A stretch of DNA of 64,000 nt, from the NCBI RefSeq assembly GCF_026738875.1, contig NZ_JAPQFJ010000014.1:1-64000 (forward strand), given 5' to 3'. The notes below the pieces were generated by a model, which saw only the letters and a program-made list of their open reading frames with translations, was not told where the DNA came from and made no database searches. This stretch comes from Clostridium brassicae. GTDB lineage: Bacteria > Bacillota > Clostridia > Clostridiales > Clostridiaceae. How positions within the stretch are numbered: the first letter of the stretch is position 1; every line of letters begins with the position of its first letter. The position numbers and the translations under genes are program-made. Below, piece by piece: positions 36,988 to 59,934 of this stretch.

Positions 36988-37011
36988 AAATTATAGGCTG
37001 GTGACTTGTTA

Positions 37012-37869: not shown

Positions 37870-37883
37870 AGGGAGATATAATA

Positions 37884-39386
37884 ATGAGTAAAAAAGAAAA
37901 GATAATATTCTTTGGAGCCTCTAAGATGGGGGAAGCGGCATATGTTTTACTTAAAGATAACTATGATATAGTTTGTTTTTGTGATAATGATAAAAACAAA
38001 TGGGGAAAAAATTTTTGTGGAGTAGAGATTATTTCTCCAGAAAGCTTAAAAAAAGATGAACTTAAAAATATACAAGTAATAATAACTAGTATGTACTATA
38101 AGGAAATAGGTAAACAACTTGAAATGATGGAAATTCAGAATTATCAGGTTTTTGATTTCAAGTTTAGATATAAAGAAGAAGTACAATATTGTAATGAGAG
38201 ATATAAAGAATTTAAGCATATAATAGATAATTCTTATTTCAATAATAAAAACCATATTAAGAATTTACATTTGATGCAGGATAGCTTTTATAATAAAAAA
38301 TTTATAGAGTTTGTAAATGAAAATTTCCTACAAGATGAACATAAGTTTATTATAATAAAGCCTTCAGATTATGAGTTAAAGTACATAGATAATATTGATA
38401 ATTATGATAATGTAGAAATACTGTATCAAGAGTATTTTGAACCCAAACTTTATTATTATGTAAAAAGTTCTGAAAAGGTATTTATACATTATTTATATGA
38501 TTATATTTGTGAATTTATATATAAATATGATATTGGAAAAAATGTAGAGTTGAATTGGAAAGTTTGGGGTGGAGACTTTTATAATATAGAAGATTTTTGT
38601 TTATATGATGAAGGAACTAAACAGTTATTAAGAAATTTAGGATTAGGTAATCTATTAGAAAAACAAGTTGATAAAAAATATAAAAATTATAGAAAAAAAA
38701 CCTTAGAAAATATTACATATATTTTATGTGGATTTAAATATGATTATGATTTAATTATTAATCAGTATAAATGCGATGCAGTATATAGGAAGATGTTTTA
38801 CCAAAATCCAATTGATTTTGAGAAATTAGACAACATAAAAAATAAATCACCTTTGAATCTTAAAGAAAAGTATAAGTATGTTATAATGGTAGGAAATTCA
38901 GCAGACCCAAGCAATAACCACATAGAAATATTAGAACAACTAAAAAGATTTAGAGATGAGGACTTATGCGTAATAGTTCCACTTTCTTATGGTGTGAAGA
39001 AATATGCGGATTACATTAAAAAAGAAGGTGAAAGGATTCTGGGGGATAAATTTATTGCTTTAATGGAGTTTTATAGTTCTGAAGATTATTATAATATTTT
39101 GAATGAAGTTGACGTGTGTATAATGAATCATAATAGACCACAAGGAGTGGGAAATATATTTACACTGATGTATCTTGAAAAAAAGGTTATGATTAAACCT
39201 AATGTTTCAACTTATAAAGGAATAAAAGAGTTGGGAGGTAATGTATTTGATGTAAGTGGTATATCGAATAGTTTAGAAAAGTTAATTTATATAGATGATA
39301 ATAGCAAGTTTATGAATAGAAATATATTTTTTGAGAATTTAAAAAAAACAATAAGCAAAGAGGCTTATTTAAAGATATTTGAGTAA
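37884..39386 (+). CDS. Rossmann module fused to WecF-like Fuc4NAc transferase
   Basis: Protein of 500 residues. Residues 1-95 are the recurring Rossmann-like module of this island (IFFGASKMGEA ... CDNDKNKWGK ... IISPESL ... TSMYYKEIGKQLE). From about 320 to the end it resembles 4-alpha-L-fucosyltransferase/WecF of family GT56: 'YKYVIMVGNSADPSNNH', 'VIVPLSYGVKKYADYI', 'LMEFYSSEDYYNIL', and 'NHNRPQGVGNIFTLMYLEKKV'. In enteric bacteria WecF moves Fuc4NAc from its dTDP form to a lipid-linked sugar. The rfbA, rfbB and wecE neighbours would supply dTDP-Fuc4N. The fused N-terminal module is unusual for this family. A flagellin or lipid acceptor is inferred. Confidence 0.78.
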   Translation: MSKKEKIIFFGASKMGEAAYVLLKDNYDIVCFCDNDKNKWGKNFCGVEIISPESLKKDELKNIQVIITSMYYKEIGKQLEMMEIQNYQVFDFKFRYKEEVQYCNERYKEFKHIIDNSYFNNKNHIKNLHLMQDSFYNKKFIEFVNENFLQDEHKFIIIKPSDYELKYIDNIDNYDNVEILYQEYFEPKLYYYVKSSEKVFIHYLYDYICEFIYKYDIGKNVELNWKVWGGDFYNIEDFCLYDEGTKQLLRNLGLGNLLEKQVDKKYKNYRKKTLENITYILCGFKYDYDLIINQYKCDAVYRKMFYQNPIDFEKLDNIKNKSPLNLKEKYKYVIMVGNSADPSNNHIEILEQLKRFRDEDLCVIVPLSYGVKKYADYIKKEGERILGDKFIALMEFYSSEDYYNILNEVDVCIMNHNRPQGVGNIFTLMYLEKKVMIKPNVSTYKGIKELGGNVFDVSGISNSLEKLIYIDDNSKFMNRNIFFENLKKTISKEAYLKIFE

Positions 39387-39648
39387 AAGCTGAATTTATA
39401 TTCTTTTATGATATTCAAATTTAGTAAAATATTTAACTACTAGATAGAAATAAATGTAAGTTCAACCATAAAGATAGTAATCAAGACAAAATATAAAAAT
39501 ATTATTGCATATAGATAACAAATTATAGATAAAAAATATTATTATAATATATCAATTTAGGATTAATATAAAATCCTATTTTAGCAATTAAAAGCAAAAG
39601 AGTTGATGAAATATTATAGATTATATAAAAAAAGCGTGAGGTGAAAAA
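39387..39648 (+). other. AT-rich gap before the radical SAM gene
   Basis: A very AT-rich stretch of 262 bases. I see no reading frame, no sigma-28 match and no strong hairpin. It may hold an AT-rich promoter that cannot be told from background. Confidence 0.4.
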
Positions 39649-40581
39649 ATGAATTACAAAGATATAATAAATTCTAGTGATTTAAATAAACAGTTATACA
39701 ATAAAAATGAGGAATTTCCACCAGCGGTTATAGTAGGAACTACAGAATATTGTAATCTAAAATGTAATTATTGTGGACATTCAAGGATGACAAGAAAAAA
39801 AGGTGTAATGAGTATACCCTTATATAAAAAAATAATTAATGAAATAGCAGTAAAGAATTCATATACTGATTTGTGGATGGTTTATTATGGAGAAGCTTTA
39901 ATGTTAAAATATAAAATGGTTTATATGATACAGTATGCTAAAAAGCAAGGACTTAAGAATGTATTTATGAATACAAATGGCATTTTGCTTGATACAGACT
40001 TATCAGAAGCAATTATTGATTCGGGATTAGATAAAATTATATTTAGCTTGGATGCATATTATGAAGAAACCTATAAAAAAATTAGAAATAATGACAATTT
40101 TGAATTAGTTAAGAAGAATATAAAGGATTTTATTGAAATAAAAAAAAGGTTAAATTCAGATATAAAAGTAGAGATTCAACTAATTGAAATACCAGGATTG
40201 CATAAAAAAGGCGAAATTGAACTATTTGAAGAGTACTGGGGAAAGTTTGATGTAGTAACTAAAAGAAAAGAATATCTTACATGGACAGGAGTGATAGAGA
40301 TAGATGGAATTAGGCATAAAAATAGATATCCATGTTCTTGGCTTTTTAGAACTTTTGTAATAACATATGATGGAAAGGTAAATCAATGCGGTTGTGATTA
40401 TGATTGTAAGGCTATCACAGGAGATCTTAAGGAAGATACAATTGAAAATATTTGGCAAACAACTTTAAAGAGAACAAGAGAACTACATCTAGAAGAAAGA
40501 TATAACGAAACCTCAATATGTGAACAGTGTAAAGATTGGGATAGTTATGAAATTATGCCATTTTTGAAATTGAGAAAATGA
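39649..40581 (+). CDS. Radical SAM/SPASM-like protein
   Basis: Protein of 310 residues. The iron-sulfur motif C-x3-C-x2-C is intact at Cys35, Cys39 and Cys42 ('TEYCNLKCNYCGHSR'). A TIM-barrel-like run follows ('VYYGEALMLKYKMVYMIQYAKKQGLKNVFMNTNGILLD', 'KIIFSLDAYYEETYKKIR'). The C-terminal part has further cysteines (QCGCDYDCKAITGD and CEQC at 291-294) typical of SPASM-type auxiliary cluster domains. Such proteins in glycan clusters often modify sugars or peptides; the substrate here is unknown. It precedes a methyltransferase and a formyltransferase, and a broken paralogue lies at 43873. Confidence 0.82.
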   Translation: MNYKDIINSSDLNKQLYNKNEEFPPAVIVGTTEYCNLKCNYCGHSRMTRKKGVMSIPLYKKIINEIAVKNSYTDLWMVYYGEALMLKYKMVYMIQYAKKQGLKNVFMNTNGILLDTDLSEAIIDSGLDKIIFSLDAYYEETYKKIRNNDNFELVKKNIKDFIEIKKRLNSDIKVEIQLIEIPGLHKKGEIELFEEYWGKFDVVTKRKEYLTWTGVIEIDGIRHKNRYPCSWLFRTFVITYDGKVNQCGCDYDCKAITGDLKEDTIENIWQTTLKRTRELHLEERYNETSICEQCKDWDSYEIMPFLKLRK

Positions 40582-40624
40582 GTTGTTTAGAATTTGTGAA
40601 ATTATTTACAAAAGGAGCAAAAAT

Positions 40625-41320
40625 ATGTTGTTGAATGATATTAGTAAAGAACAAATCGTTAATGCACACAAAGATAGATTTAAACAATATGGATATTCAC
40701 CTAAGTCATTATTTTGGGATAAGAATAGGCAAAATATAAGATTTGATGTTCTTACTTCAAATTATGATTTTAGTAATAAAAAGATATTAGATATTGGGTG
40801 TGGATTTGGTGATTTAAATAATATATTGAGTTTAAAAGCTGACAGATATATATATATGGGAATAGATATTGTTGAAGATTTTATTGCGTATGCCCAGGAT
40901 AAATTTAAAAATGAAGAAAATATTAGTTTCAAGTTAGGGGACTTTCTAAGCGAAAAATTCATTGCTAATTATGATTATATAATTGCATCTGGTACATTTA
41001 ATTATAAATTAAAAAATATGGATAATTATGATTATATTGAAGCTATAATTAATAAATCTTTCAATACATGTAATTCAGGTATAGCCTTTGATTTTTTATC
41101 AGACAAAGTTGATTATAAATATGATTTTAATTTTTATTATTCTCCTGAAAAGATATTATCAATAGCTTATAAATATTCTAAGAATATAGTATTAAGAAAT
41201 GATTATATGCCATTTGAATTTAGTTTATTCATAAATAAAGATGATTCTTTTAAAAAAGAATATCCTATATTTAACGAATATAGACATTCTCATTCTATTT
41301 ATAAAAAGGAGATGTATTAA
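40625..41320 (+). CDS. Class I SAM-dependent methyltransferase
   Basis: Protein of 231 residues from the ATG at 40625 after AAAAGGAGC. An open frame from 40583 lacks a good site. SAM motif I is 'KKILDIGCGFGDLNN' at about 52-66, with 'YIYMGIDIVEDFIAYAQDKF' (acidic end of strand 2) and 'ISFKLGDFL' after it. There is no SET or zinc part. It is likely to methylate a sugar or sugar intermediate in the same cluster. Only four bases separate it from the formyltransferase gene. Confidence 0.8.
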   Translation: MLLNDISKEQIVNAHKDRFKQYGYSPKSLFWDKNRQNIRFDVLTSNYDFSNKKILDIGCGFGDLNNILSLKADRYIYMGIDIVEDFIAYAQDKFKNEENISFKLGDFLSEKFIANYDYIIASGTFNYKLKNMDNYDYIEAIINKSFNTCNSGIAFDFLSDKVDYKYDFNFYYSPEKILSIAYKYSKNIVLRNDYMPFEFSLFINKDDSFKKEYPIFNEYRHSHSIYKKEMY

Positions 41321-41324
41321 ATTT

Positions 41325-42035
41325 ATGAAGAAAATAGTTTTTTTAGTATCTGGAGATGGAGGTACTTTAAAGTTCATAAAAAAATGCATTGATAACAATA
41401 TTTTACAAGGATTTGTTATTCAGTGCGTAATTGCTGATAGAGAGTGTGGAGCTTTAGAATTTGCAAGAAATAATGGTATAAATAATTATAAGATAACTTA
41501 TGATAAAAATAATGATACTGAATTAAAAGCGATATTGGATGAAAATACTACAGTAGATTATGTTATAACCAATATACATAAGATTATTTCAGAACAATTA
41601 GTAGAACAATATTATGGAAAGTTAATTAATTTACATTATTCCTTACTACCTGCCTTTAAAGGTTTTAATTCTGTAAAAAGAGCATTTGATAAAGGATGTA
41701 GATTCATTGGAACTACAGTACATTATGTTGATAAAGATATAGATAACGGAGAGATAATATCACAAACAATCATGAGTATTGATAGAAATATGAAGTTTCA
41801 TTTGACAATGAATAAAATTTTTCAAGCTGGTTGTTTAAATCTTTTAAATACAATAGTAAGAATGACAAATTTAAATAATGTTGAGAGCATAAATAAAGTT
41901 GAGGAATATGATGGAATCATTTTTTCACCACAGTTTGTTATAGATACACAAAAAATAGACTTTGAATTTTGGCAAGAAATTAGGGGTGGCAGAGGTGAAT
42001 TAAAAAATGCACAAAATAGCAATTCTTCAATCTAA
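41325..42035 (+). CDS. PurN-like formyltransferase (putative sugar N-formyltransferase)
   Basis: Protein of 236 residues from the ATG at 41325, which follows the AAAAGGAGATG end of the previous gene. It has the formyltransferase pattern 'KIVFLVSGDGGTLKFI', and the catalytic Asn102, His104 and Asp140 ('INLHYSLLPAFKG', 'VHYVDKDIDNGEII') match PurN Asn106, His108 and Asp144. PurN uses 10-formyltetrahydrofolate. In this context, next to WecE- and WecF-like genes, the acceptor is probably the amine of dTDP-Fuc4N rather than GAR. Its 3' end overlaps the next gene by 29 bases, which is against a free-standing purine gene. Confidence 0.78.
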   Translation: MKKIVFLVSGDGGTLKFIKKCIDNNILQGFVIQCVIADRECGALEFARNNGINNYKITYDKNNDTELKAILDENTTVDYVITNIHKIISEQLVEQYYGKLINLHYSLLPAFKGFNSVKRAFDKGCRFIGTTVHYVDKDIDNGEIISQTIMSIDRNMKFHLTMNKIFQAGCLNLLNTIVRMTNLNNVESINKVEEYDGIIFSPQFVIDTQKIDFEFWQEIRGGRGELKNAQNSNSSI

Positions 42036-42738
42036 TTATCTCCCATGGAAAGGTGTATTTGATATGATACATCAAGTAGATACATTTGTATTCCTAGAAG
42101 ATGTTCAATATACAGAGCATGATTGGAGAAATAGAAATAAGATTATAACTAAAGATGGAGTTAAGTGGATTACAGTTCCTGTTAATCATAGTAATAGAAA
42201 AGGACAAAAAATATATGAAGCAGAAATTAATGATAAAATAAGTTGGCAGAGAAAACATTATAATGCTTTTGAATTAAATTATGCTAAAACACCATATTTT
42301 AAACAATATAGATGGATTCTAGAGGATTTATATAGGAATAAAAAGTGGAGCAAAATATCAGATTTCAACATTTATGCTATAGAGCTTATTGCTAAAGAAT
42401 TAGGAATAAAAACTCAGTTTATAAATTCATTAGATTTAATAGCTAAAGGAACAAAGGATGATAGGATAATAGGGATATGTAAAAAGTTAAATGCAACTCA
42501 TTATTTATCAGGAACAGCGGCAAAAAACTATATTATACCAGAAAAGTTTGAAAAAGCTAACATAAAACTTGAATATATTAAGTATGAATATCCAAGATAT
42601 AAGCAACTTTATGGATCTTTTAATCATTTTGTTACAGTGCTTGATTTGATTTTTAATTGTGGGACTAAAGCTCCTTATTACATATGGGGATGGAGAGAAA
42701 AAAAAGAAAAAGGAGTTATTGAGTATGATACCCTTTAA
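42007..42738 (+). CDS. WbqC-family protein
   Basis: Protein of 243 residues with the WbqC pattern: 'IAILQSNYLPWKGVFDMIHQVDTFVFLEDVQYTEHDWRNRN' (start), 'WITVPV', 'YAKTPYFKQYRW', and 'ATHYLSGTAAKNYI'. WbqC-like proteins occur in O-antigen and other polysaccharide clusters; an enzymatic role is proposed but not well defined. It starts inside the formyltransferase gene after GAGGTGA and its last 14 bases overlap the aminotransferase, so the three are translated together. Confidence 0.82.
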   Translation: MHKIAILQSNYLPWKGVFDMIHQVDTFVFLEDVQYTEHDWRNRNKIITKDGVKWITVPVNHSNRKGQKIYEAEINDKISWQRKHYNAFELNYAKTPYFKQYRWILEDLYRNKKWSKISDFNIYAIELIAKELGIKTQFINSLDLIAKGTKDDRIIGICKKLNATHYLSGTAAKNYIIPEKFEKANIKLEYIKYEYPRYKQLYGSFNHFVTVLDLIFNCGTKAPYYIWGWREKKEKGVIEYDTL

Positions 42739-43852
42739 TAAGCTATATATAACAGGAAAAGAAGAAATATATGTAAAAGATTGTTTGAAAAGAAAACATA
42801 TTCATGGAGATGGGTATTACACTAAAAAGGTAAATAAATTTATAGAAGAAAAATTTAATACTAGAAAAGCGTTAATGACAACATCATGTAGTTCTGCGCT
42901 TGATATTGCTGCAATTTCACTAAATTTAAAAGAAGGCGATGAGGTGATTATGCCTTCATATACTTTTGTATCTACAGCTAATGCAGTTGTTTTAAGAGGT
43001 GCTAAACCTGTTTTTGCAGAAATAAGTAAAGATACGCTTAATATAGATCCACGAGATGTAGAAAACAAAATAACAAATAATACAAAAGCAATTTTCCCAG
43101 TACACTATGCAGGGGTAAGCTGTGACATGGATAGTATTATGGATATAGCAAAAGAGTATAATTTAAAAGTAGTAGAAGATGCAGCACAAGGAGTTAATGC
43201 TAGGTATAAAGGGAAGTATCTTGGAACAATAGGGGATATAGCATGCTATAGTTTTCACGAAACTAAAAATTATTCTTCAGGAGAAGGGGGAGCTATTCTT
43301 GTAAATAATGACAATGATTTATGCAAGAGAGCTGAAATAATAAGAGAAAAAGGAACTAATAGGAGTCAGTTTTTTAGGGGAGAAGTGGATAAGTATACAT
43401 GGGTAGATGTAGGTTCAAGTTATTTACCTTCAGATATGTTAGCTGCATTTTTATGTGCACAATTTGAAAAGATAGATGAAATACAGGAAAGTAGAAAAAA
43501 AGTTTATGATGCATATTATGTTGGATTAAATGAATTAGAGAAACAAGGGAAACTAAAGTTGCCTATAATACCTGAACATTGTGAGAGTAATTATCATATG
43601 TTCTATATATTGCTGAATTCAGAAAAAGAAAGAGATAGCTTAATGTATAAACTTAAAGAAAGAAATATAGGAGCAGTATTTCATTATATTCCTTTGCATG
43701 AATCGCCTATGGGACAGAAATTTGGATATAAACAAGGTGATTTGAATATAACAGAGGATTTAAGTAGACGGATATTAAGATTGCCTATGTACCCAGAATT
43801 AAAAGCACAAGAAATTGAATATATAGTAAAAAATATTAAAGGTATTTTATAA
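42725..43852 (+). CDS. wecE: dTDP-4-amino-4,6-dideoxygalactose transaminase (WecE/RffA)
   Basis: Protein of 375 residues from the ATG at 42725; an upstream in-frame ATG at 42659 lies in the previous gene. It is very close to enteric WecE: 'GDGYYTKKVNKF', 'PSYTFVSTANAVVLRGAKPVF', 'VVEDAAQGV', 'SFHETKNYSSGEGGAI' with the PLP lysine at 181, 'REKGTNRSQFFRGEVDKYTWVDVGSSYLPSD', and 'VFHYIPLHESPMGQKFG'. It uses dTDP-4-keto-6-deoxyglucose and glutamate to make dTDP-Fuc4N. Together with rfbA and rfbB it completes that route. Confidence 0.92.
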   Translation: MIPFNKLYITGKEEIYVKDCLKRKHIHGDGYYTKKVNKFIEEKFNTRKALMTTSCSSALDIAAISLNLKEGDEVIMPSYTFVSTANAVVLRGAKPVFAEISKDTLNIDPRDVENKITNNTKAIFPVHYAGVSCDMDSIMDIAKEYNLKVVEDAAQGVNARYKGKYLGTIGDIACYSFHETKNYSSGEGGAILVNNDNDLCKRAEIIREKGTNRSQFFRGEVDKYTWVDVGSSYLPSDMLAAFLCAQFEKIDEIQESRKKVYDAYYVGLNELEKQGKLKLPIIPEHCESNYHMFYILLNSEKERDSLMYKLKERNIGAVFHYIPLHESPMGQKFGYKQGDLNITEDLSRRILRLPMYPELKAQEIEYIVKNIKGIL

Positions 43853-43872
43853 ATTAAGCAAGAGTTGATTTT

Positions 43873-45003
43873 ATGAAAAATGTGTGATTCTATTTGGAGC
43901 ATCCAACTTAGTGAATATGCCTATAATAATTAAAAAAACGATAATGATATTTGCTTTTTTAGTGATAAAGACTCAAAAAAATGAGGAGAAAAGTTTTGTG
44001 GAATTGATATAGTTTCAATAATATTATTATAACTAGTATTCATTGGAAAGAAATATATAAACAAATGAATGAACTAGGATTTGAAAATATCTATGTATAT
44101 ACAAATAATAATGAAACTTTTGAAGAATATGATAATGAATATCCTGAATCAATATGGATAGAAACAACAAATTACTGTAATGCAATGGTAAGAAAAAAAG
44201 GATATATGTCTTTAGATTTATATAAGAAAATAATAAATGAACTTAAGTTTTTTAAGCCAATGATAAATCTCCATTACTCAGGAGAAACTTTTCTACATAA
44301 GGATTTATATGAAATTATAAACTACGCTAAAGGATTTAATTTAGATGTAGGATTTACTACTAACGGAACACTAATAGATAAAGATAATTATTGTATTTTA
44401 AAAACAGGAATAGATAGAATAAACATTTCCCTTGCAGGAGTAGATAAAGAAGATTATGAATTTATAAGAAAAAATTCAAGTTTTGATGAAATAGAAGAAA
44501 AGATAATTAAACTTGCTAATTTGAAAAAAACAAATAATTTTAATACTAAAATTTATATAAATGTAACGAAAACAGAAAAAAATAAAGATAGGATAGAAAA
44601 CTTTGTAAGTAAGTTTAATGGTGTTGATGGTATAGATGAAGTAATAGTAAGAAATCTTATGACATGGTCAAAAAGTGTAGATGTATCTGGAATGAAGGTA
44701 AATAATAATGAAGAGATAGATAACTCTAGGAATTATGAAATTGTTAAAATTAGTAGTTTGCATCCTATTAATTTTTTACTTTGCAAGGCTATGTATAAAA
44801 GTTTAGCTGTTTTATGGGATGGAACTGTTGTGCCTTGTTGGTTAGATTTTCAAGGATATAATAGCTTTGGAAACTTATTAGAAGAAAGTTTTATATAGAT
44901 ATATATATAATGGAGAAAAGAGAAAAAAACTATTAAAAGTTATGCAAGACAAAAGTTTAGTCAAAGATAGTAATGAATTTTGTAAAAATTGTATGAATTT
45001 ATA
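43873..45003 (+). pseudogene. Decayed fusion of Rossmann module and radical SAM enzyme
   Basis: The first 200 bases still read, in pieces and in different frames, as the island's Rossmann module (ILFGASN ... SDKDSKK ... GEKFCGIDIVS ... ITSIHWKEIYKQMNELGFENIYVY). They run into an intact frame from 44065. That frame is a radical SAM protein like the one at 39649, but about nine residues are missing: 'YCNLKCNYCGHSRMTRKKG' there is 'YCNAMVRKKG' here. Two of the three cluster cysteines are therefore gone. The frame stops at 44898, and the SPASM tail (... EFCKNCMNL) continues in another frame to 45003. The lesions make function unlikely. Confidence 0.82.
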
Positions 45004-45015
45004 AGGAGGAAGCTT

Positions 45016-47076
45016 ATGTCTTTACTTTTAGTTAACCAATTAAAAAATAATAATAAATTATTTGAACTAGCTAATTATGGAAAACATAAATATCTCACAT
45101 GTCTAGCTAAAGAAATTAATATTGGTTTTATTAATGATGAGGTTCTTTTTAAACAGGATGATATTGTAAGTAACGAATCCGATACTCTTATAGGTTTTAT
45201 GTTAGGTGAAATTTATGATACTGAAGATAAAAAATATGATTTAAAGTCTAAAGGACACATATTTAAGTCTAATTTAGATATAGAGTACGTAATGCATCTA
45301 TATGAGGAGTATGGGGAAGATGAATTAAAAAGATTCAATGGTAAGTTTATAATATGTATTTATGACAAAGTAAAAAAAGAAACAATAATTGTGAATGACA
45401 GATATGGATATTATACATATTTTTACTCCGTAAATAAAGGAAAATATACATTTTGTAATGATCCTAATGTATTGTTATATTATATTGAAAAAAGGGAATT
45501 AAATCAGGAGGCAGTAAATGAATTTTTTAATTTTGGATATCTTTTAGATAATAAAACTCTTTTTAAGAATATAAATAAACTTGAACCAGCCTCTATAGTT
45601 AAGTTAAAAAATAATGAAGTGTTGTTTGATAAATATTGGGAGTGGACTGATATTAAGAAAACTATAGATATAACTTACGAACAAGCGGTAGAAAAGCTAG
45701 GATTACTTTGGATTAAATCTATTAAGAAAATAATGAATAAACATGAAAAATTTATTTTACCATTAAGCGGTGGATTGGATTCTAGAGCAATTTTAGCAGC
45801 AATAGATTTTTTAGGATTCAATAATAAAATAGAAAAAGCTGTAACTATAGGACAAGAGAACTGTTGGGATTATTTGATTGCTAAGAAAGTATGTGAAATT
45901 TCAAATATTAAACATGAATTATTACATATAAATGAGAAAATTTGGTTACAAGTAGTAAATGAAACTATAGTAAATTCTATAGGAGGAATATATTGTGCAT
46001 GTGGAATTATAGAAAAAAGCATAGGAAGAGACATATGTCGATATCCAATCTTAAATGGGTTAGCTGGAGATTTAGTATTAGGAGGGAGCTTTTTATCAGA
46101 GAAAGTACTAAGTAGTAAAGTGAAGTACAATGAATATTGTTATAAATGTTTAAAAAGTAGTGGATTAAGTAACATTAATGTTATAAAAAAATTAAATAAT
46201 ATAAATTTACAAATTGATGATGTGGATTTTATAAAAGGTTCAATTGATTATTATTTTTTAAATAATAGTAGAGTTAAAAATTTTACTGTTACAGGAGCTT
46301 TGACTCATGGTACAAATTATAATGATATTATACCTTTTTTTGACAATGATTTAATAGAATTTATCTATTCCTTGCCTGATAAATGGAAACTGGATTCACA
46401 GTTATACAAAAATATGTTAATTAAATTTTTCCCTAAATTTTATTTAGATATACCTTGGCAGAAAACTGGCAAATCTATAAAAAAAATAGGAATATATACT
46501 TTTAACTTAAAAAAAATAAAAATAAAAAAATATAATGAAAAATTAGTAAAAATGCAAAAATCAAATAAATCAATAGTTTTATTTGGAGCATCTAATTATG
46601 GGAAAAAATCACTATTACTGCTTAAATTAAAATATAAGAATATTGTGTTTTGTGATAATGATAGTAGTAAATGGGGAAAGTATCTAGAAGGGTATAAGAT
46701 AATTTCACCAAAAGAGTTATTAAAATATAAAAGTGATTTTATATTTATTACTAGTATGTATTACAAAGAGATATCAATACAGTTAGAAACGTTTAATATA
46801 TATAATTATCGATATTTTAGTGTGGCAAATAATAAAAAATTTTTATATTCTTCTAACTTTATACATTTTAGTGATTGGATAAAAAAGGATAATATCAGAA
46901 AAGAAATTTATAACACATTATTAGATAATGATTGTAGTGGCTTTTACAATACATATGAAATAAAGAAATTATTAGATAATCATATGAATAGAAATGTAGA
47001 TTCATGGATAGATATATTAATTTTGTATACTTTTAAAAAATTTTATCAGATATACTTCGATACAAATTTGAAATAA
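45016..47076 (+). CDS. Asparagine synthetase-like protein fused to Rossmann module
   Basis: Protein of 686 residues from the ATG at 45016 (AAGGAGGA upstream); a start at 44989 would lie in the old SPASM tail. The N-terminal glutamine amidotransferase-like domain lacks the catalytic Cys2 (it begins MSLLLV), although 'FNGKFIICIYDKVKKE' and 'YGYYTYFYS' of the fold remain. The synthetase domain has the ATP PP-loop 'LPLSGGLDSRAILAA' at about 250. From about 518 a Rossmann module is appended (VLFGASNYGKK ... CDNDSSKWGK ... IISPKEL ... TSMYYKEISIQLE). It probably forms an amide or similar bond on a glycan acid, with ammonia from elsewhere. That is inference. Confidence 0.75.
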   Translation: MSLLLVNQLKNNNKLFELANYGKHKYLTCLAKEINIGFINDEVLFKQDDIVSNESDTLIGFMLGEIYDTEDKKYDLKSKGHIFKSNLDIEYVMHLYEEYGEDELKRFNGKFIICIYDKVKKETIIVNDRYGYYTYFYSVNKGKYTFCNDPNVLLYYIEKRELNQEAVNEFFNFGYLLDNKTLFKNINKLEPASIVKLKNNEVLFDKYWEWTDIKKTIDITYEQAVEKLGLLWIKSIKKIMNKHEKFILPLSGGLDSRAILAAIDFLGFNNKIEKAVTIGQENCWDYLIAKKVCEISNIKHELLHINEKIWLQVVNETIVNSIGGIYCACGIIEKSIGRDICRYPILNGLAGDLVLGGSFLSEKVLSSKVKYNEYCYKCLKSSGLSNINVIKKLNNINLQIDDVDFIKGSIDYYFLNNSRVKNFTVTGALTHGTNYNDIIPFFDNDLIEFIYSLPDKWKLDSQLYKNMLIKFFPKFYLDIPWQKTGKSIKKIGIYTFNLKKIKIKKYNEKLVKMQKSNKSIVLFGASNYGKKSLLLLKLKYKNIVFCDNDSSKWGKYLEGYKIISPKELLKYKSDFIFITSMYYKEISIQLETFNIYNYRYFSVANNKKFLYSSNFIHFSDWIKKDNIRKEIYNTLLDNDCSGFYNTYEIKKLLDNHMNRNVDSWIDILILYTFKKFYQIYFDTNLK

Positions 47077-47119
47077 GAAGATTATGTGAAAAAAAAGATA
47101 GAAGAAGGGAATGTTAGTC

Positions 47120-47275
47120 TTGAAGGAAGATATAGTTATATTTGGAGCATCTAAGTTTTGAGAAATAGCTTATATACTATTAAAAGATGAGTATAACATT
47201 TTATATTATTGGGATAATGATATCAATAAGGTGGGAAAAACTATAAATGGCATCACTAGTGTTTAATTATTAGAA
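47120..47275 (+). pseudogene. Decayed Rossmann module beside the IS4 remnant
   Basis: From the TTG at 47120 (GAAGGGA upstream) the bases read KEDIVIFGASKF-stop-EIAYILLKDEYNILYYWDNDINKVGKTINGITSV-stop. This is the first half of the island's module with two stop codons. The rest is missing; the IS4 remnant lies just to the right, so the insertion or a later deletion probably removed it. It sits 44 bases after the asparagine-synthetase-like gene. Confidence 0.75.
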
Positions 47276-47457
47276 AATATTTTCATTGATATTTATATTT
47301 TAATAATTTTTATAGATAAGTTTCTAAATTAAACTATCTTGGTATAAAATTCCTATAGAAAAGGGCAGACTTGCCCTCATAGCGATAGCTTGCGTGGAAA
47401 TATATGGGTTTAAACTACTATTAACTATCTAGCCACTTATCCCAAGAAAATAAGCTA
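47276..47457. other. Left flank of the IS4 remnant
   Basis: No reading frame. A GGGCAGACTTGCCC hairpin lies near 47365, and the sequence is less AT-rich than its surroundings, so at least part belongs to the insertion element. I could not fix a clear terminal inverted repeat. Confidence 0.4.
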
Positions 47458-48529
47458 CTATCCACTAATTTTGCAAGTGAGTGTTTTATTAATCTCTTTA
47501 TTTTTAATAAGCCGTAGGCTGTTTTGGTTACGTCTTGTATTAGTTTTTGCTATAATAAATGTTATTATTGCAGAAACAATTTGCATCATGACTGCATTGA
47601 GACTATGACCTATGAATCTTTTTATTTTTAAATTTTGTTTAATCCATTTGAAGAATAGCTCGATATCCCAATGTTTTTTATATAACCATGCTATATCTTC
47701 ACTGGTATATTGTAGTATGTTAGTTACAAAGGTTAGTATCTGACCTTCAGAATCAACTACGGTTATAACCCTATACTGATTTTTTGTCATATTAATATCT
47801 TCTGTACCAAGATAGCAAACAATATCTTCAATGATATTTATAGAATCATCTAGTAGGGTAACGTCAGAGTAAGTTATTTCAAGCTTACTTACTTCAGTTA
47901 TAGCAGCATTATCTTTTAATCGCGTGATAAAGCGTATTCCTTTATTGCTAAACTCATCAAACTTTTTAAAGACAGCATAGCCTTTATCAAAGACATATAT
48001 ACAATTGTTTTCTGTAATAAGTTCTTTCATCTTAGTTCTATCATGCGGTTTAGCATTAGACACAATTATAAGCTCTGGAACTCCTTTGCTTAAGTTAAAT
48101 TTTGTATGAAGCTTTATTCCTGCTTTTGTAGAGCGAAATTCTGCCCATTGAAAATAAGTTTTAGCCATACTTTATTAACTTTATGGTTCCAAACTTTTTT
48201 ATTTTCTCACTTACAGGCAGTTGTTCTAAAGCGTTAGAAATTAGTTCATTCAATATTGGAATGTAAACATTATAATCAATATGATTGTTATAATTAGATA
48301 ACATTCCCAAGCTAACGCTTTTTATTGACTCCTTTAGCTTAGAGTCTGATTGCATGAAATCATCAATATCCCTTAAGCTATCTAGCTTCGCTAAATGAAA
48401 GTAGAGATGAGTTTTTAAATGATTTCATGCTATATTATAGTCAACATCTAACTTATACGTAGATTTTTTCAAAGTGTTCCAGTTAACAATATCTAATAAT
48501 TTTTCAAAAATAGTGATATAATTACCCAT
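47458..48529 (-). pseudogene. IS4-family transposase, broken
   Basis: Read on the minus strand from 48529 ('MGNYITIFEKLLDIVNW'), the frame meets a TGA at 48425-48427. It resumes as '...DSLRDIDDFMQSDSKLKES' and stops again at 48161. The C-terminal 230 residues continue in another frame from 48168 ('WAEFRSTKAGIKLHTKF', 'VFDKGYAVFKKFDEF', 'HWDIELFFKWIKQNLKIKRFIG'). The latter carry the second Asp and the Glu with the K of the YREK signature. The stretch with the first catalytic Asp (normally 'LIDSSTISL...') is missing at the junction. The element cannot move by itself. It lies between two decayed genes. Confidence 0.85.
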
Positions 48530-48531
48530 AG

Positions 48532-48598
48532 ATAGTCAGCACCTTTCTTGCTTTTTTATGGTTAGTGGTAATTATATTAAAGCAAGGTTGCTGGCTAT
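48532..48598. repeat. Imperfect inverted repeat at the right flank of the IS4 remnant
   Basis: ATAGTCAGCACCTTTCTTGCTTT (split as 48532-48543 and 48544-48554) pairs with AAAGCAAGGTTGCTGGCTAT at 48579-48598, with two or three mismatches. It probably marks or lies inside the element's right end. Confidence 0.5.
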
Positions 48599-48679
48599 TT
48601 TCATTTATATATTGATGGTATAAATAGAAGCTTATTACATAAGATTATTGTCAATAGTATTTTAAATCCATTAATTAAA

Positions 48680-49490
48680 CACTAGTGAGAAAATTTAAAG
48701 TATAAAAAAGCTATTAATGCTTATAAGATTATATTTAATCATGTGCTAAGTAATATTAATTATGAGAAAGATCCTTTTTTTACGTTTAACTATATTAGAG
48801 ATATAGAGAAAAAATATAATTTTAAATCTTCTTTCTATTTTATGACAGGAGGAAATTCTGACAAAGATAATTTTTATAAGATAAATGATACTAGAATATT
48901 AGAACTTATGTATAAGCTATATAAAGAAAATTGTGAGATAGGTTATCACTATAGTTTTAATTCTTTTGGTAACTTAGAACAAAGAGAAAAAGAAAAAATA
49001 TTAGACAAGCATGTTGAAAATAAGATATATGGTGGAAGAAACCATTATTTAAGGTTTAAAGCACCTGAAAGCTTTAGAATAAGTGAAACAGTAGGATTAT
49101 TATATGATACTACATTATCTTTTGCAGATTATGATGGCTTTAGGTGTGGTATATGTATGACGTATAAACCTTTTGATGTACTAGAAAATAGGAAATTAGA
49201 TATCTGGGAAATTCCCCTTATTGTAATGGAAGGGACTTTAAAGGATAAGAAATATAGAAATTTAAGTAAAAAAGATGGGTTTTTAGCAATCAAAGAAAAG
49301 ATAGATATTTGTTAAAAAGCATAATGGAGTTTTTACTTTGCTTTGGCATAATTCATCTTTTGATAAAGAAAATTGGAATGGTTGGAAAGATGTATTTGAA
49401 AATACTATGAAGTATTTATATAAAAACAATGCATTTGGAACAAGTGGTGAAAAAATAATTAGTATGTTAGAAAATAAGAAGCAAAGGTGA
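48680..49490 (+). pseudogene. Broken polysaccharide deacetylase-like gene
   Basis: A frame without a proper start runs from about 48680 ('AYKIIFNHVLSNINYEKDPFFTFNYIRDIEKKYNFKSSFYFM') through 'EIGYHYSFNSFGN' and 'YLRFKAPESFRI'. It stops at 49315. The C-terminus continues one base out of frame ('KKHNGVFTLLWHNSSFD') to 49490. The pattern is that of a polysaccharide deacetylase-type fold used in glycan clusters (NodB-like, with the His in 'GYHYS' and the C-terminal 'LLWHNSS'). The N-terminus was lost beside the IS4 remnant, and a T-run near 49311 holds the frameshift. Confidence 0.7.
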
Positions 49491-49494
49491 TTAA

Positions 49495-50003
49495 ATGAAA
49501 ACCATATTAATAATGAGAATTGCTAATATGCAGACTATGGAGCAACTTATAAGTTATCTAAAAGAACATAATAAGAAGGATAACATCTATTGTTTAATAC
49601 AAAAAAGCTCTATTGAAGCTTTTAAAGAGAAATATCCTCATATAAATTATATAGAAAAACAGAATGGTTTTTTTAAGTATAAAGAGTTTAAAAAAGATAT
49701 AAATTTGAAAAGTAAATTAAAGTGTGTAAAAGCTGATGAAATGTATATCCCATCTTCTTATATAGATTTTCCTGATTTTCAAGATGCTTTTTGATAGCTT
49801 CAAAGATAAACTGTAAAAAATACATTTTATTTAATGTAAATGGGGAAATGCAAGAAGAAAAATTAAATTTTGTTTCTTTATGTATAGATAAATATTTAGG
49901 TGAAATAATTTATTTTGTAAAAGTATTATTTGCTTTAATAGGAATATTTATAATATACATTTTTGCATATCCTTATTATTTTATAAAAAGAAAATTATTT
50001 TAA
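49495..50003 (+). pseudogene. Frameshifted small membrane protein of the island
   Basis: Two frames join here: 'MKTILIMRIANMQTMEQLISYL...' to a stop at 49794, and 'IASKINCKKYILFNVNGEMQ...' from about 49790 to 50003. Adding one T in the TTTTT at 49783-49787 restores one protein of about 170 residues. It has an N-terminal Rossmann-like beginning and a C-terminal transmembrane segment ('ALIGIFIIYIFAYPYYFI'). I do not recognise the family. It may be a pseudogene, a slippage-controlled gene or a sequencing error. It starts four bases after the broken deacetylase. Confidence 0.6.
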
Positions 50004-50011
50004 AATTTATA

Positions 50012-50035
50012 GGCACTCACTTATGGGTGCTTTTA
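50012..50035 (+). terminator. Terminator ending the decayed zone
   Basis: GCACTCA-CTTA-TGGGTGC with one mismatch-type G-T pair, followed by TTTTAATTTT. Confidence 0.7.
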
Positions 50036-50039
50036 ATTT

Positions 50040-50066
50040 TAAAGATTTAGTATAAATAAACGATAA
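50040..50066 (+). promoter_or_regulatory. Sigma-28 (SigD) promoter of the wecB operon
   Basis: TAAA at 50040-50043, CGATAA at 50061-50066, 17 bases between; the wecB start is 47 bases downstream. It overlaps the tail of the terminator above, so it starts a new transcript. Confidence 0.77.
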
Positions 50067-50112
50067 AATTAAAGATGATGACAATAAAATATTAAGTACC
50101 AGAGGTGATAAT

Positions 50113-51195
50113 GTGAAATTTTTAACAGTTATTGGTGCTAGGCCACAATTTATAAAAGCTACATTAGTTTCTAAAAAATTAAGAGAATCGCATAATGAAA
50201 TAATTGTTCACACGGGACAACACTATGATAAAAACATGTCAGAAATATTTTTTAAAGAACTAGCAATACCAAAACCTGATTATAATTTAAAAATTGGCTC
50301 TGCCTCTCATGGAAGACAAACAGGAGAAATGCTTATAAAGATTGAAGAAGTAATTTTAAAAGAAAAGCCAGACTCTGTCATTGTATATGGTGATACTAAT
50401 TCCACATTGGCAGGAGCTTTAGCAGCTTCAAAACTACATATTCCAGTAATTCATATAGAATCAGGTCTTAGGAGTTTTAATAAAAAAATGCCAGAAGAAC
50501 AAAACAGAATACTTACTGATAATATATCCACATATTTGTTTTGTCCTACAAAAACAGCAGTAGATAATTTACGTAATGAAAGAATAATAGAAGATGTTTA
50601 TAATACTGGTGATGTTATGTATGATTCTACTTTGTTTTTTGGAGACATGGCACAAAACAAATTTAAAGAAGGTTTAGCTGTAAATGATGTAAAAATAGAA
50701 GAGAAAAATTATTATTTAGCTACATTACACAGAGCTGAAAATACGGATAACATAGAAAAGATAACAACACTATTAAATACTTTAAATAAACTAGATAGTA
50801 AAGTTATAATTCCAGTTCATCCAAGGATCAAAAATATAGTAAAAGAGTTAAATAAAAAGTGTGAATTTAAAAATATAAGTATAATTGAACCGGTTGGATA
50901 TTTGAAAATGCTTTATTTAATAAAAAATGCTAAAAAGGTTTTAACAGATTCAGGAGGAATGCAAAAGGAAGCTTACTTTTTAAATACTCCGTGTATAACC
51001 TTAAGAAATGAAACAGAATGGATAGAAACTTTAAATGGAAATTTGAATGTTTTATGTAAAATTGATTGTGAAGATATAATTGATAAGGCGTATAATACTA
51101 ATATTGATTATAATATGATAAATAAAAATTATTTTGGAAAAGGGAAGGCAGTTATAGATATTATTAATTTGATAAATACGAGAGTAAGGTGTTAA
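50113..51195 (+). CDS. wecB: UDP-GlcNAc 2-epimerase (non-hydrolysing)
   Basis: Protein of 360 residues from a GTG start after GAGGTGATA. It has 'VIGARPQFIKATLVSKKL', 'HTGQHYDKNMSEIFF', 'VYGDTNSTLAGALAA', 'HIESGLRSFNKKMPEEQNRI', 'ATLHRAENTDN', and 'LTDSGGMQKEAYFL', all WecB hallmarks. It interconverts UDP-GlcNAc and UDP-ManNAc. No ManNAc dehydrogenase (WecC) is nearby, so ManNAc itself, or a derivative, would be used in the glycan. Confidence 0.9.
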   Translation: MKFLTVIGARPQFIKATLVSKKLRESHNEIIVHTGQHYDKNMSEIFFKELAIPKPDYNLKIGSASHGRQTGEMLIKIEEVILKEKPDSVIVYGDTNSTLAGALAASKLHIPVIHIESGLRSFNKKMPEEQNRILTDNISTYLFCPTKTAVDNLRNERIIEDVYNTGDVMYDSTLFFGDMAQNKFKEGLAVNDVKIEEKNYYLATLHRAENTDNIEKITTLLNTLNKLDSKVIIPVHPRIKNIVKELNKKCEFKNISIIEPVGYLKMLYLIKNAKKVLTDSGGMQKEAYFLNTPCITLRNETEWIETLNGNLNVLCKIDCEDIIDKAYNTNIDYNMINKNYFGKGKAVIDIINLINTRVRC

Positions 51196-51200
51196 AAGTG

Positions 51201-51659
51201 ATGGATAAATTTGGTGATAAAGAATTATTAAATTTATATGTAAATACTTTAGATGAAGTAGATTCAATGAACTATAGAAATAAAGTATACTATAGTATAC
51301 TTTATTTATGGTTAAAAAATAAATTAAATAATAAAAATATAGAAGATTATTTTTTGAAAAATAAAATAAAGACTATTGCTGTTTATGGAGCAGGAAATTT
51401 AGGTGAACTTTTATATGATGAATTAAAAAATAGTAATAAGGTATATACTAAGTATTTAATAGATCAAGGCAATGTAAATAAAAAAAATTATCAAATACCA
51501 ATAATAAAATTAGAACAATTAAGTAATATGGAAGAAGTAGATTGTATTGTTGTAACGCCAATTTATGCCTATGATCAAATAAAAGAAAACTTAAGTAAGT
51601 TAGGACTTAACAAAATTATGTGTATTGATGATATTGTAACTGAAATATATTATGAATAA
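51201..51659 (+). CDS. Stand-alone Rossmann-like module protein
   Basis: Protein of 152 residues; the ATG at 51201 is chosen, although the frame is open from 51189 across the wecB stop. After about 55 helical residues it carries the island's module in a more divergent form: 'IAVYGAGNLGELLYDEL', 'YLIDQGNVNKKNYQIPIIKLEQL', 'CIVVTPIYAYDQIKENL'. The DNDxxKWG part is replaced. No other domain is attached. It may serve as a free partner of the transferases, binding the same ligand. Confidence 0.65.
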   Translation: MDKFGDKELLNLYVNTLDEVDSMNYRNKVYYSILYLWLKNKLNNKNIEDYFLKNKIKTIAVYGAGNLGELLYDELKNSNKVYTKYLIDQGNVNKKNYQIPIIKLEQLSNMEEVDCIVVTPIYAYDQIKENLSKLGLNKIMCIDDIVTEIYYE

Positions 51660-51695
51660 TATTACAAATTAAAAAAAGAAAAAGGAACTGATTTT

Positions 51696-52796: not shown

Positions 52797-52842
52797 TGTA
52801 GGATGATAAGAAAAACTAAATTTTATACATGGAGGAATAAAG

Positions 52843-53769
52843 ATGAAAGTTTTAGTAACAGGGGGAGCAGGTTTTGTAGGTTCTCATATAGTTGATTTGT
52901 TAATACAAAGAGGTTATGAAGTAGTTGTGGTTGACAATTTATATCATGGTAATCTAAAAAATATTAATTCAAGAGCTGTATTTTATAAAGTAGATATAAG
53001 AGATAAATATAAAATAAAAGATATATTTGATAAAGAAAAACCAGATTATGTTATACATGAAGCTTCACAAATAAGTGTGGAAAATTCAATAGAAAATCCT
53101 ATATTAGATGCAGAGATAAATATATTAGGAACTATAAATGTTTTGGAATCTTGTAAAGGAAGTAAAGTGAAAAAAATAATATATCCGGCTTCGGCAGCTA
53201 TATTTGGGGAGCCAGAATATTTACCTATAGATGAAAAGCATCCTCTAAGTATGCTTTCACCTTATGGTGTAAGTAAACATACAGTGGAGCATTATTTAGA
53301 TGTATATAATAAAATTTATGGGATTAATTATGTTTCGTTAAGATGCTCTAATGTATATGGACCGAGACAAGATAGTTCAGGAGAAGGGGGAGTGGTATCG
53401 ATATTCTGTAATAAGATGTTTAATGGAGAAAGACCTATAATTTTTGGAGATGGCGAGCAAATAAGGGATTTTATTTATGTAACAGATGTTGCAAGAGCTA
53501 CTTTAATGGCAATGAGTGGTAATATTAATGGCATTTTTAATGTGTGCTCTGGTACAAAGACAAGTATTAATAAATTAGTTAAGTCTATTAATAAAATATT
53601 GGATCAAGATATTAAGGCTATCAATAAAGAAGAAAGAAAAGGTGATATTAAATTTAGTTTTATGAGTAATGTGAAAATAAATAGTATATTAAAGTGGGAG
53701 CAAAAGATACGTCTAGAAGATGGTCTTAGAAACATGTTAAAATATCTTGAAATGGAAAAAAAAGTATAA
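52843..53769 (+). CDS. NAD-dependent sugar epimerase/dehydratase (GalE-like)
   Basis: Extended SDR enzyme of 308 residues. It has 'VTGGAGFVGSHIVDLL', 'VVVDNLYHGNLKNI', 'HEASQISVENSIENP', the catalytic Ser in 'PASAAIFGEP', 'LSPYGVSKHTVEHYL' (YxxxK), 'CSNVYGPRQDSSGEGGV' and 'RDFIYVTDVARATL'. It most resembles UDP-glucose/UDP-GlcNAc 4-epimerases. A GlcNAc-to-GalNAc type step for this operon is a reasonable guess. The start ATG follows TGGAGGAATAAAG. Confidence 0.82.
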   Translation: MKVLVTGGAGFVGSHIVDLLIQRGYEVVVVDNLYHGNLKNINSRAVFYKVDIRDKYKIKDIFDKEKPDYVIHEASQISVENSIENPILDAEINILGTINVLESCKGSKVKKIIYPASAAIFGEPEYLPIDEKHPLSMLSPYGVSKHTVEHYLDVYNKIYGINYVSLRCSNVYGPRQDSSGEGGVVSIFCNKMFNGERPIIFGDGEQIRDFIYVTDVARATLMAMSGNINGIFNVCSGTKTSINKLVKSINKILDQDIKAINKEERKGDIKFSFMSNVKINSILKWEQKIRLEDGLRNMLKYLEMEKKV

Positions 53770-53789
53770 AGACAAATGAGGTGTATATT

Positions 53790-55232
53790 TTGGAAAATAA
53801 TATAAAAAAAATAATTATTTTTGGAGCATCCAAAGCGGGTCAGAAAATGTTTAATATTTTAAGAAACTTTAATTATAAAGTTGAATTTTTTGTGGATAAT
53901 GATGAAAATAAATGGGATACCATGGTTTGTGGAAAACCCATAAAATCACCTAAAACGTTAAAAAATATAGATTTGGGAAGATATTATATAATTATAGGCA
54001 GTATGTTTATAAATGACATATCTAATCAATTAGAGACAGTGGGGTTATTATATAAAATTAATTTTGATAATATGTATAACTATACAAAGATGCTTATAGA
54101 GGATAATATTAACTATTTCATAAGTAGAATTAAAAAAGAGAAAGTTATCTATTTAAATAATAAAAGTGTATTTATGGCACTACCTTGTGGGATTTCTTTA
54201 GGGGGAGTAGAGACTTTATCCTCTACAATAAGTAATGCACTAAACGAGAAATATGATAATACATATTTATTGAATTTAAAACCAAGAGAGGGTGATAATC
54301 CAGAAGTGATAGGATTTAAATTTAAAGAAAAAATATTAGACTTTTATATAGATGATAATAATTATTTAAATTCATTAATTGAAGGATGCGTAAAGTTACA
54401 AAAGTACCTACCTATTACTATTATTCCTAATCATTCTGAAGAAGTTTTTTTAATAGCTAATATTTTAAAAAAAATATATCCAGACTTTGTTAAAGTGATA
54501 TCTATACTTCATTCTATATCTGACGATACATATGAGAAAAATATTAATTACTCTAAAATTATAAGTAAATTTATATGTGTTAGTGATGAGATTTCTAATA
54601 AATTCATAAAATTATTGCCACAAAGAAATGAGGATATTATTACAAAAATATCTCCAGTAGTAATAGAAGGAAAAAGAAATAGCTATTCTAACGAAGAAGA
54701 GCCTTTAAAAATTGGGTTTGGAGGTAGGCTTGTAAAAGAAGCAAAAAGATGCGATCTATTAATTAATCTTATAGATGATTTAGAAAGTAGAGAAATAAGC
54801 TATGAAATTCATATTGCTGGAAACGGTGACTACTATAATATAATAAATGAGTTTATTATAGAGAAAAAACTTAATAATAAAGTGTTTTTATATGGACAAA
54901 TACCAAATAATAAGATGAATTATTTTTGGAGGCAAATGGATGTTTATATTAATACATCAGATTTTGAAGGAACAAGTATTGCTATGTTGGAAGCTTTAGG
55001 AAATGGATGTGTACCTATTGTTACAAATGTTAGTGGTGTAAAAAAATTTATATCAAATGGTATTAATGGCTTTGTTGTAGAGGTAGGAGATTTTGTTGGA
55101 ATGGCAAATAATATTGAGTTTTTATACTTTAATAGAGAAAAATTATATAAATTTGGGATGAAATGTATTGATAGAGTGAAAGAAGCATGTTCAATAGAAG
55201 ATTATATTAATCATATTTACAGTATAATATAA
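53790..55232 (+). CDS. Rossmann module fused to GT4 glycosyltransferase
   Basis: Protein of 481 residues from TTG at 53790, five bases after GAGGTGT; a GTG at 53781 is in frame but overlaps that site. Residues 5-100 are the island's module ('IIIFGASKAGQKM', 'VDNDENKWDTM', 'PIKSPKTL', 'IGSMFINDISNQLE'). A GT-B fold follows: 'LPCGISLGGVETLSSTISNAL' at about 133, then 'IGFGGRLVKEAKRCDLLI' at about 306, and 'DFEGTSIAMLEALGNGCVPIV' with E-x7-E at about 392. It transfers a sugar in the glycan made by this operon. The module is again at the N-terminus, as in the WecF-like protein at 37884. Confidence 0.82.
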   Translation: MENNIKKIIIFGASKAGQKMFNILRNFNYKVEFFVDNDENKWDTMVCGKPIKSPKTLKNIDLGRYYIIIGSMFINDISNQLETVGLLYKINFDNMYNYTKMLIEDNINYFISRIKKEKVIYLNNKSVFMALPCGISLGGVETLSSTISNALNEKYDNTYLLNLKPREGDNPEVIGFKFKEKILDFYIDDNNYLNSLIEGCVKLQKYLPITIIPNHSEEVFLIANILKKIYPDFVKVISILHSISDDTYEKNINYSKIISKFICVSDEISNKFIKLLPQRNEDIITKISPVVIEGKRNSYSNEEEPLKIGFGGRLVKEAKRCDLLINLIDDLESREISYEIHIAGNGDYYNIINEFIIEKKLNNKVFLYGQIPNNKMNYFWRQMDVYINTSDFEGTSIAMLEALGNGCVPIVTNVSGVKKFISNGINGFVVEVGDFVGMANNIEFLYFNREKLYKFGMKCIDRVKEACSIEDYINHIYSII

Positions 55233-59884: not shown

Positions 59885-59934
59885 TTTTAAAGAATCATAA
59901 AGAATGTCATATGATTAGGATGATTCTTTTAAAA
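59885..59934 (+). promoter_or_regulatory. Hairpin before the nonulosonate synthase gene
   Basis: TTTTAAAGAATCAT (59885-59898) pairs with ATGATTCTTTTAAAA (59920-59934), followed by the ribosome binding site AAAGGAG. It could terminate or attenuate transcription before pseI, or just stabilise the upstream message. Confidence 0.5.

Follow-up and report, generated by a model that had tools for sequence, protein, structure and literature searches.

How the cytoplasmic glycosylation of flagellin selects its acceptor, and how hypervariable glycan islands stay functional amid the turnover of their enzymes, are open questions. According to PMC7591256, FlmG modifies flagellin in the cytoplasm and owes its specificity to an N-terminal flagellin-binding domain; flagellin binding is also served by the tetratricopeptide repeats (TPR) of Maf-1 and by the GlfM part of Maf-2 (as cited in PMC13317340), and Maf action is reported to precede chaperone binding and export (PMC4065374). 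Here we analyse 64,000 nucleotides of Clostridium brassicae (assembly GCF_026738875.1, contig NZ_JAPQFJ010000014.1, positions 1 to 64,000; hereafter the window), which is a flagellin-glycosylation island and carries, between 37.9 and 54.1 kb, six homologous copies of a Rossmann-like module attached to several glycosylation enzymes. We tentatively propose that the module is a portable accessory domain, found preferentially in flagellin-glycosylation islands, through which enzymes are recruited to one common cytoplasmic partner, probably with the help of a nucleotide-type ligand.

Four copies are intact (1, 3, 5 and 6) and two are decayed (2 and 4):

37893..38201, + strand: module copy 1, intact, N-terminus of a GT56/WecF-like protein (gene 37884-39386)
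43888..44149, + strand: module copy 2, decayed, interrupted by several stops and frame breaks, in front of a radical SAM pseudogene (44065-44898)
46564..46851, + strand: module copy 3, intact, near the C-terminus of an asparagine-synthetase-like (AsnB-like) protein (gene 44989-47076)
47123..47305, + strand: module copy 4, decayed and truncated, adjoining a transposase remnant
51366..51629, + strand: module copy 5, divergent, in a 156-aa protein without other recognised domain (gene 51189-51659)
53799..54101, + strand: module copy 6, intact, N-terminus of a GT4 glycosyltransferase (gene 53781-55232)

Six copies in 16 kb had been claimed in an initial annotation of the sequence, and an independent profile together with dinucleotide shuffles bears this out for all six; the sites are real, except that position 45016, given for copy 3, is the gene start and the module itself lies at 46564-46851. 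The independent profile was built from 36 of A3's 41 rows, without the four rows of the window and the one of the close relative G005; its E-values are scaled to a search of 4000 proteins, and decayed copies were scored in single frames with stops as X. Copies 1, 3 and 6 are matched by the three-row profile of the whole-genome search below at E 5.5e-54 (copy 1 itself being among its rows), 5.7e-42 and 5.7e-49, and by the independent profile at 2.7e-32, 3.5e-28 and 2.2e-26, respectively; copy 5 follows at 4.4e-09 with the independent profile. Copy 4 scores E 6.1e-10 with the three-row profile, across one TGA and one TAA, and its 43.6 bits with the independent profile compare with 8.7 for the best of 300 dinucleotide shuffles. 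For copy 2 the independent profile gives 23.7 bits against 10.7 for the best of 300 such shuffles, and the direct repeat families D1 and D3 are further evidence for this copy. Independent profile and shuffles thereby rule out that unrelated families were grouped by eye. In a whole-genome search with a three-row profile, eight matches were obtained at E ≤ 0.1: the six window copies, with copy 2 at just E 0.03 and copy 5 at E 0.04, one in a 618-aa open frame that we take to encode a CapD-type protein, and one weak match. Thus six of the eight module matches of this genome lie in the island.

Protein identity to copy 1 is 49% for copy 3, 38% for copy 6 and 23% for copy 5, so that copies 1, 3 and 6 form one family and copy 5 is a distant member. 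The motifs F/YGAxxxG, DNDxxKWG, ISPxxL and SMYYKEIxxQLE, initially listed as shared marks, need qualification accordingly, as DNDxxKWG, ISPxxL and SMYYKEI are all missing from copy 5. The partner of copy 1 matches PF07429 at 54.5 bits and that of copy 6 PF00534 at 85 bits; the copy 5 protein matches no Pfam family above its cut-off. Because the main DNA alignments between copies are only about 62-71% identical, we regard the copies as old paralogues and not as recent repeats.

The radical SAM pseudogene at 44065-44898, preceded by a broken fused module, has CNA at its cluster motif without the CxxC part, where the paralogue at 39649 reads CNLKCNYC. The amidotransferase-like domain of the AsnB-like protein (44989-47076) starts without a Cys (MSLLLVN...; MSLMAIF... 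in the counterpart at L014), so that, instead of using glutamine, the protein may act as an ATP-dependent amide ligase. Adjoining copy 4, a transposase-like remnant lies in two frames at 47458-50003, presumably of IS4 type, a label taken over from the initial annotation only. Longer counterparts in G005 (478 and 172 aa) show that the genes at 48743 and 49495/49791 are truncated or split; this part of the island is decaying.

A search of genomes with the module profile and a tally of partner domains, as initially suggested, yielded 101 module proteins in 21 genomes, with the module N-terminal in 48, C-terminal in 45 and internal in 8. BLAST sorted the partners into 51 groups, a figure that overstates the number of superfamilies because such groups split remote homologues. 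A4 omits one of the 101 proteins, which straddled a piece boundary, and 100 were scanned with Pfam. Among the 25 of 61 families listed are GT2 (26 proteins), FkbM (6), other methyltransferases, GT1-type (5), GT56 (3), radical SAM (2), TylF (2) and DltD (2), in support of the original claim that one Rossmann-like module is shared by several glycosylation enzymes. The fusions themselves recur: an AsnB-like protein with a C-terminal module is also found in L014 (42% identity over 691 columns), and GT56-module and GT4-module fusions exist in other genomes. As the same fusions recur elsewhere, assembly errors are ruled out as their source.

The module is distributed unevenly among enzyme classes. 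In the 20 genomes other than that of the window, where open reading frames (ORFs) were classed by best BLAST match to window proteins and not by curated names, 24 of 45 GT2-type ORFs carry the module, versus none of 126 precursor-pathway ORFs (Fisher p 3e-17; queries were RmlA, RmlB, other SDR, DegT, PseI, PseG, CMP-synthetase, WecB and neighbouring ATP-grasp and HAD proteins). GT56 was not used as an enrichment class: its query itself contains the module, so that partially overlapping matches might raise the count. In the same genomes the module is absent from all 17 Maf ORFs, from all 34 flagellin-like ORFs and from all 17 ORFs most like a GT2-TPR-methyltransferase protein of the window; the absence from this last group hints that TPR and module may be alternatives.

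The predicted structure of the module (pLDDT 94.5) is a Rossmann-like domain of about 84 residues, with the fold of the accessory domains of CapD N-domain/WbaP type. Its nearest folds are the N-domain of UDP-QuiNAc dehydrogenase (3nkl), 2g6t, the WbaP accessory domain and Rex; the Foldseek matches were re-examined with VIA-align, where succinyl-CoA synthetase likewise scores about 9-10. Related folds include VioB and PerB, whose entry titles name nucleotide sugars, VioB being found also by profile (E 0.006). The resemblance to nucleotide-sugar binding folds noticed at the outset is thus supported by profile and structure comparison, and that to the C-terminal domain of sugar C-methyltransferases (PF08484) by profile, with a mixed outcome among the copies: copy 3 reaches 24.2 bits against a gathering cut-off of 23.5, copy 6 stays under it at 17.2 bits, and copies 1 and 5 are not listed. 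At E 1e-4 the family is matched by 6 of the 100 module proteins, copy 3 counting among them by its E-value. Gly6 is conserved in 97% and Asp30 in 89% of 84 modules. Because the pocket is conserved, a nucleotide co-ligand is likely, and the glycine-loop/Asp pocket probably holds a ligand of nucleotide type.

Other profiles match less well. PF13727 and phosphoglycosyl transferase or dehydratase partners were not found at E ≤ 1 on the four intact proteins, in a search in which HMMER filters drop most matches above 0.1. PF22674 (C2185-like_N) matched no window copy at E ≤ 1; it is matched by 7 of the 100 module proteins. Against PglD_N (PF17836) copy 5 scores 14.5 bits, with a cut-off of 23.4 and no other window copy listed, and no hexapeptide acetyltransferase domain is listed on the four intact window proteins. 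Weak Rex matches to copies 1 and 5 span only the Rossmann part, none is above cut-off, and no winged-helix DNA-binding domain was matched. Pfam covers the module only in fragments (PF08484, PF22674, and sub-threshold PglD_N and CoA_binding), so that annotation can miss it.

Fold and pocket also suit the strongest rival to recruitment, namely that the module is an allosteric sensor, tuning the activity of its enzyme when a nucleotide or nucleotide sugar is bound, a role put forward for the WbaP accessory domain. Experimental precedent exists in that domain, which is stabilised by UMP, UDP and UTP, UMP inhibiting the enzyme (PMC10942596). Yet the usual targets of feedback, the precursor-pathway enzymes, are devoid of the module in the 20 genomes (CapD-type dehydratases elsewhere carry a related domain), the module is also found on radical SAM and AsnB-like proteins, and free-standing copies have no enzyme to regulate. 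Scarcity on precursor enzymes argues against feedback on supply, not against control of transferases. We hold a sensor to be unlikely.

Alternatively, part of the glycan could be built on a nucleotide-activated sugar, with every enzyme gripping the same nucleotide of the acceptor by its module. The scheme runs against the general view that flagellin glycans grow while attached to the protein; it would explain the relationship to VioB and PerB, the match of copy 3 to the C-methyltransferase family and the prevalence of the module on acceptor-side enzymes. We consider it decidedly improbable.

Module genes are concentrated near flagellar genes. At E ≤ 1e-10 the module occurs in 15 of 96 genomes of the family, and in the phylum-wide draw in 9 of 149, counting the window's own and one probable Rex match. 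In each of the 20 genomes read in detail, a contig with a module also holds, at most 50 kb away from it, a flagellin(-like) or Maf gene; those of G059 and G079 are no more than flagellin-like BLAST matches of 32-39%, G155 is counted for contig C64, another than the contig read, and the distances in G240 and G076 are 41 kb (flagellin) and about 37 kb (Maf). Distance was used instead of flagellin presence because 125 of the 149 phylum-draw genomes already have Flagellin_N, as have 27/27 and 7/7 module genomes (G258 in both sets). In a scan of contigs, which gave 43 loci with 27 taken as genome handles and possibly overlapping the 20 genomes read in detail, a Flagellin_N gene, be it flagellin or the hook-associated FlgL, lies no more than 50 kb from a module on its contig in 19 of the 27 genomes, where a rough null predicts 3.6. 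Maf is present in 13 of the 15 genomes with a module, that of the window among them, compared with 29 of 81 others (p 4e-4).

Within genomes the same preference is seen. In eight genomes all 38 module matches at E 1e-6 lie in the flagellar island, though 86 of 115 GT2 matches lie elsewhere, and at this cut-off the module is found on 5 of 27 island GT2 proteins versus none of the 86 others (p 6e-4; the island count covers 27 of 29 matches). The 29 island and 86 other GT2 matches, the 19/27 count and the cluster numbers of the null were read by hand from match listings. The confinement of the 38 matches to the island and the GT2 contrast speak against a generic dimerisation or folding domain of surface-glycan enzymes, whose flagellar location would reflect the subfamily of the seed. 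Such a role, which we rate as improbable, has precedents in WbaP, where the domain gives most inter-chain contacts of the dimer, and in EpsZ, where it is predicted to take part (PMC10942596 and PMC12802240, respectively); it would also accommodate the fold relatives in non-flagellar proteins and a flagellar link that is weak in Pseudomonadota.

Some islands are densely populated: module-bearing are 7 of 7 ORFs within a 7.8-kb span in G045, 8 of 10 in G090, and 13 of 20 ORFs over 23.6 kb in G240 (L164-L165, C18:668932-692493), the last with the most module ORFs of any cluster surveyed. Left out of this survey were G037, whose contigs are fragmented (module at C27:62242, Maf at C27:53174), and G136, whose 214-aa frame we take to be Rex. 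At E 1e-10, 21 of the 27 contig-scan genomes have at least two matches and 6 a single copy; G101 and G164 are also single-copy. In one genome the sole copy at this cut-off is a free-standing module of 85 aa (L016:4998-5252), located between an flgL-like gene and ORFs that we read as fliW, csrA and a flagellin-like gene.

A tree of 84 modules, built by a quick method with 17 of the 101 modules omitted for E above 1e-5, was used to follow inheritance. The partner label (57 modules) changes 19 times on the tree versus 37.4 when shuffled, and the label for N- or C-terminal position 18 versus 32.7 times, with none of 200 shuffles as low in either case; the genome label changes 66 times versus 68.2, and 32 of 200 shuffles are as low. 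Once close relatives are merged, which concerns three pairs, clustering by genome does appear (56 versus 65.2, 0/200 as low), as expected from shared ancestry. Module phylogeny hence tracks the partner and not the single genome, so that fused genes were inherited or transferred whole after repeated old fusions.

This pattern lends no support to the initial suggestion of spread by recombination, taken as acting inside the locus. A recent recombination cassette copied within the locus would explain the many copies at both termini and one clear swap, in which the window GT56 partner is 36-37% identical to two GT56 partners while the modules are just 30-35% identical; the window GT56 module shares 58-61% identity with modules that an unrelated protein carries in those two genomes. 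However, partner labels cluster strongly and genome labels do not, and among the 42 modules whose nearest neighbour has another partner only 3 (7%) find it in the same genome, compared with 4.8% of random pairs. Recent DNA duplication within the locus is ruled out by the module tree and the 62-71% identity of the main DNA alignments; the cassette is thus mostly refuted and very improbable, and module swaps between partners appear to be occasional.

Recruitment to a common partner or hub fits these data, because the module is found on transferases and tailoring enzymes of unrelated folds, at either end, and in free-standing copies. The enzymes that bear it at one terminus or the other belong to families that assemble or modify the glycan, namely glycosyltransferases, methyltransferases, an AsnB-like protein and some radical SAM enzymes. 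The common partner in the cytoplasm, which we infer as we do recruitment and ligand, may be flagellin, its chaperone, Maf or a hub complex, or the free-standing module, and the glycine-loop/Asp pocket with its nucleotide-type ligand would serve recruitment. The 'common sensor or docking unit' of the initial annotation could likewise fit the enrichment near flagellin and Maf, the transferase bias and the lack of modules on the 126 precursor ORFs.

Several observations weigh against recruitment in flagellin glycosylation. None of the five ORFs most like the intact radical SAM protein of the window carries the module in the 20 genomes, and outside these genomes a related domain is found on CapD-type dehydratases, that is, on precursor enzymes (L051, L052 and G459). 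Island GT2 matches of the eight genomes are mostly module-free (8 of 27 carry it, at a looser cut-off than in the outside count). In a draw of 249 Pseudomonadota genomes, the module is present in the chosen centre G258 and in 6 of the 248 others; all seven have Flagellin_N and just two have it within 50 kb. Two further ones have it at 62 and 67 kb, the latter module being on a CapD-type protein, and in the three others, on short contigs, we read the module as part of a different kind of locus. Among the contig-scan genomes, 8 of 27 have no nearby Flagellin_N gene, several of them on short contigs, and a free-standing copy of 89 aa (L012) has no flagellar gene within its 10 kb. The census is biased, since its profile started from modules of a flagellar island. 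For relatives with a characterised structure, nucleotide binding is better known than recruitment.

A more far-reaching form of the proposal, possible though doubtful, holds that the module is an interchangeable tag which, at either end of enzymes with unrelated folds or free-standing, gathers the variable enzyme set of a strain on flagellin or a hub, and that any newly acquired enzyme bearing it would work at once. If this is true, hypervariable islands could exchange enzymes without losing function. One domain across many types of island enzymes offers a direct handle: it could mark unrecognised glycan enzymes in genomes, and it can be deleted, moved and tested for a common partner or ligand.

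The surroundings of the module copies support the assignment as a flagellin-glycosylation island: the window holds FliS, FliD, flagellin and Maf genes together with glycan genes, among them genes for nonulosonic acid (PseI and PseG).

24154..25110, + strand: flagellin gene, anchor of the island (PF00669 and PF00700)
30194-31450 and 33242-35071, + strand: two Maf-type (MptE-like) proteins (PF01973)
32030-33028, + strand: PseB-like dehydratase (TIGR03589, 341 bits, below the equivalog cut-off of 407.75)
35929..43852, + strand: variable cassette of RmlB, RmlA, module-GT56, radical SAM, methyltransferase, formyltransferase, WbqC and WecE-type transaminase
59934..62033, + strand: PseI and PseG for pseudaminic acid (TIGR03586, 521.9 bits, and TIGR03590, 242.9 bits, both above cut-off)

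Judged by its gene set, in which the WecE-type transaminase scores 589 bits against a cut-off of 375, the variable cassette probably makes a dTDP-Fuc4N-type sugar that would be transferred by the WecF-like enzyme. Gene content differs between close relatives: in G005, of the same genus, the stretch from 35.9 to 48.7 kb is replaced with both flanks conserved, three of the replacement genes again carry the module, and the orthologues of copies 5 and 6 are 68% and 79% identical. Hypervariability of this region in Clostridium has already been published (PMC13317340). Beside the flagellin gene, 25382-30004 encodes a protein of 1540 aa with a GT2 domain, many TPR and a methyltransferase domain.

The fold itself is already known. 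In open-licence literature we found no description of its use as one module common to enzymes of many types in flagellin-glycosylation islands, and the words 'Rossmann' and 'fused' do not occur in the main texts of PMC13317340 and PMC5109656. Like the large phosphoglycosyl transferases, exemplified by WbaP with an accessory domain described as PF13727, the proteins studied here carry a Rossmann-like accessory domain; in contrast to WbaP-type and PglF/CapD-type (3nkl) proteins, no phosphoglycosyl transferase or dehydratase domain was found on those of the window. The C2185-like N-terminal domain (PF22674; structure 2g6t from C. acetobutylicum) is close in fold, whereas no window copy matches its profile; we take 2g6t to be CAC2185, after which the family would be named and which presumably lies in a flagellar island. 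Copy 3 reaches the cut-off of PF08484, yet the window partners are glycosyltransferases and an AsnB-like protein, not C-methyltransferases. Compared with the NAD(H)-binding domain of Rex, the module is fused to glycan enzymes and no DNA-binding part is matched. The N-terminal domain of FlmG, the TPR of Maf-1 and GlfM are, in the sources cited here, not reported as common to many unrelated enzymes, and TPR is a different fold from the module. In those sources they are accessory elements that bring a flagellin glycosyltransferase to its acceptor, a role that the module would share if flagellin is its partner.

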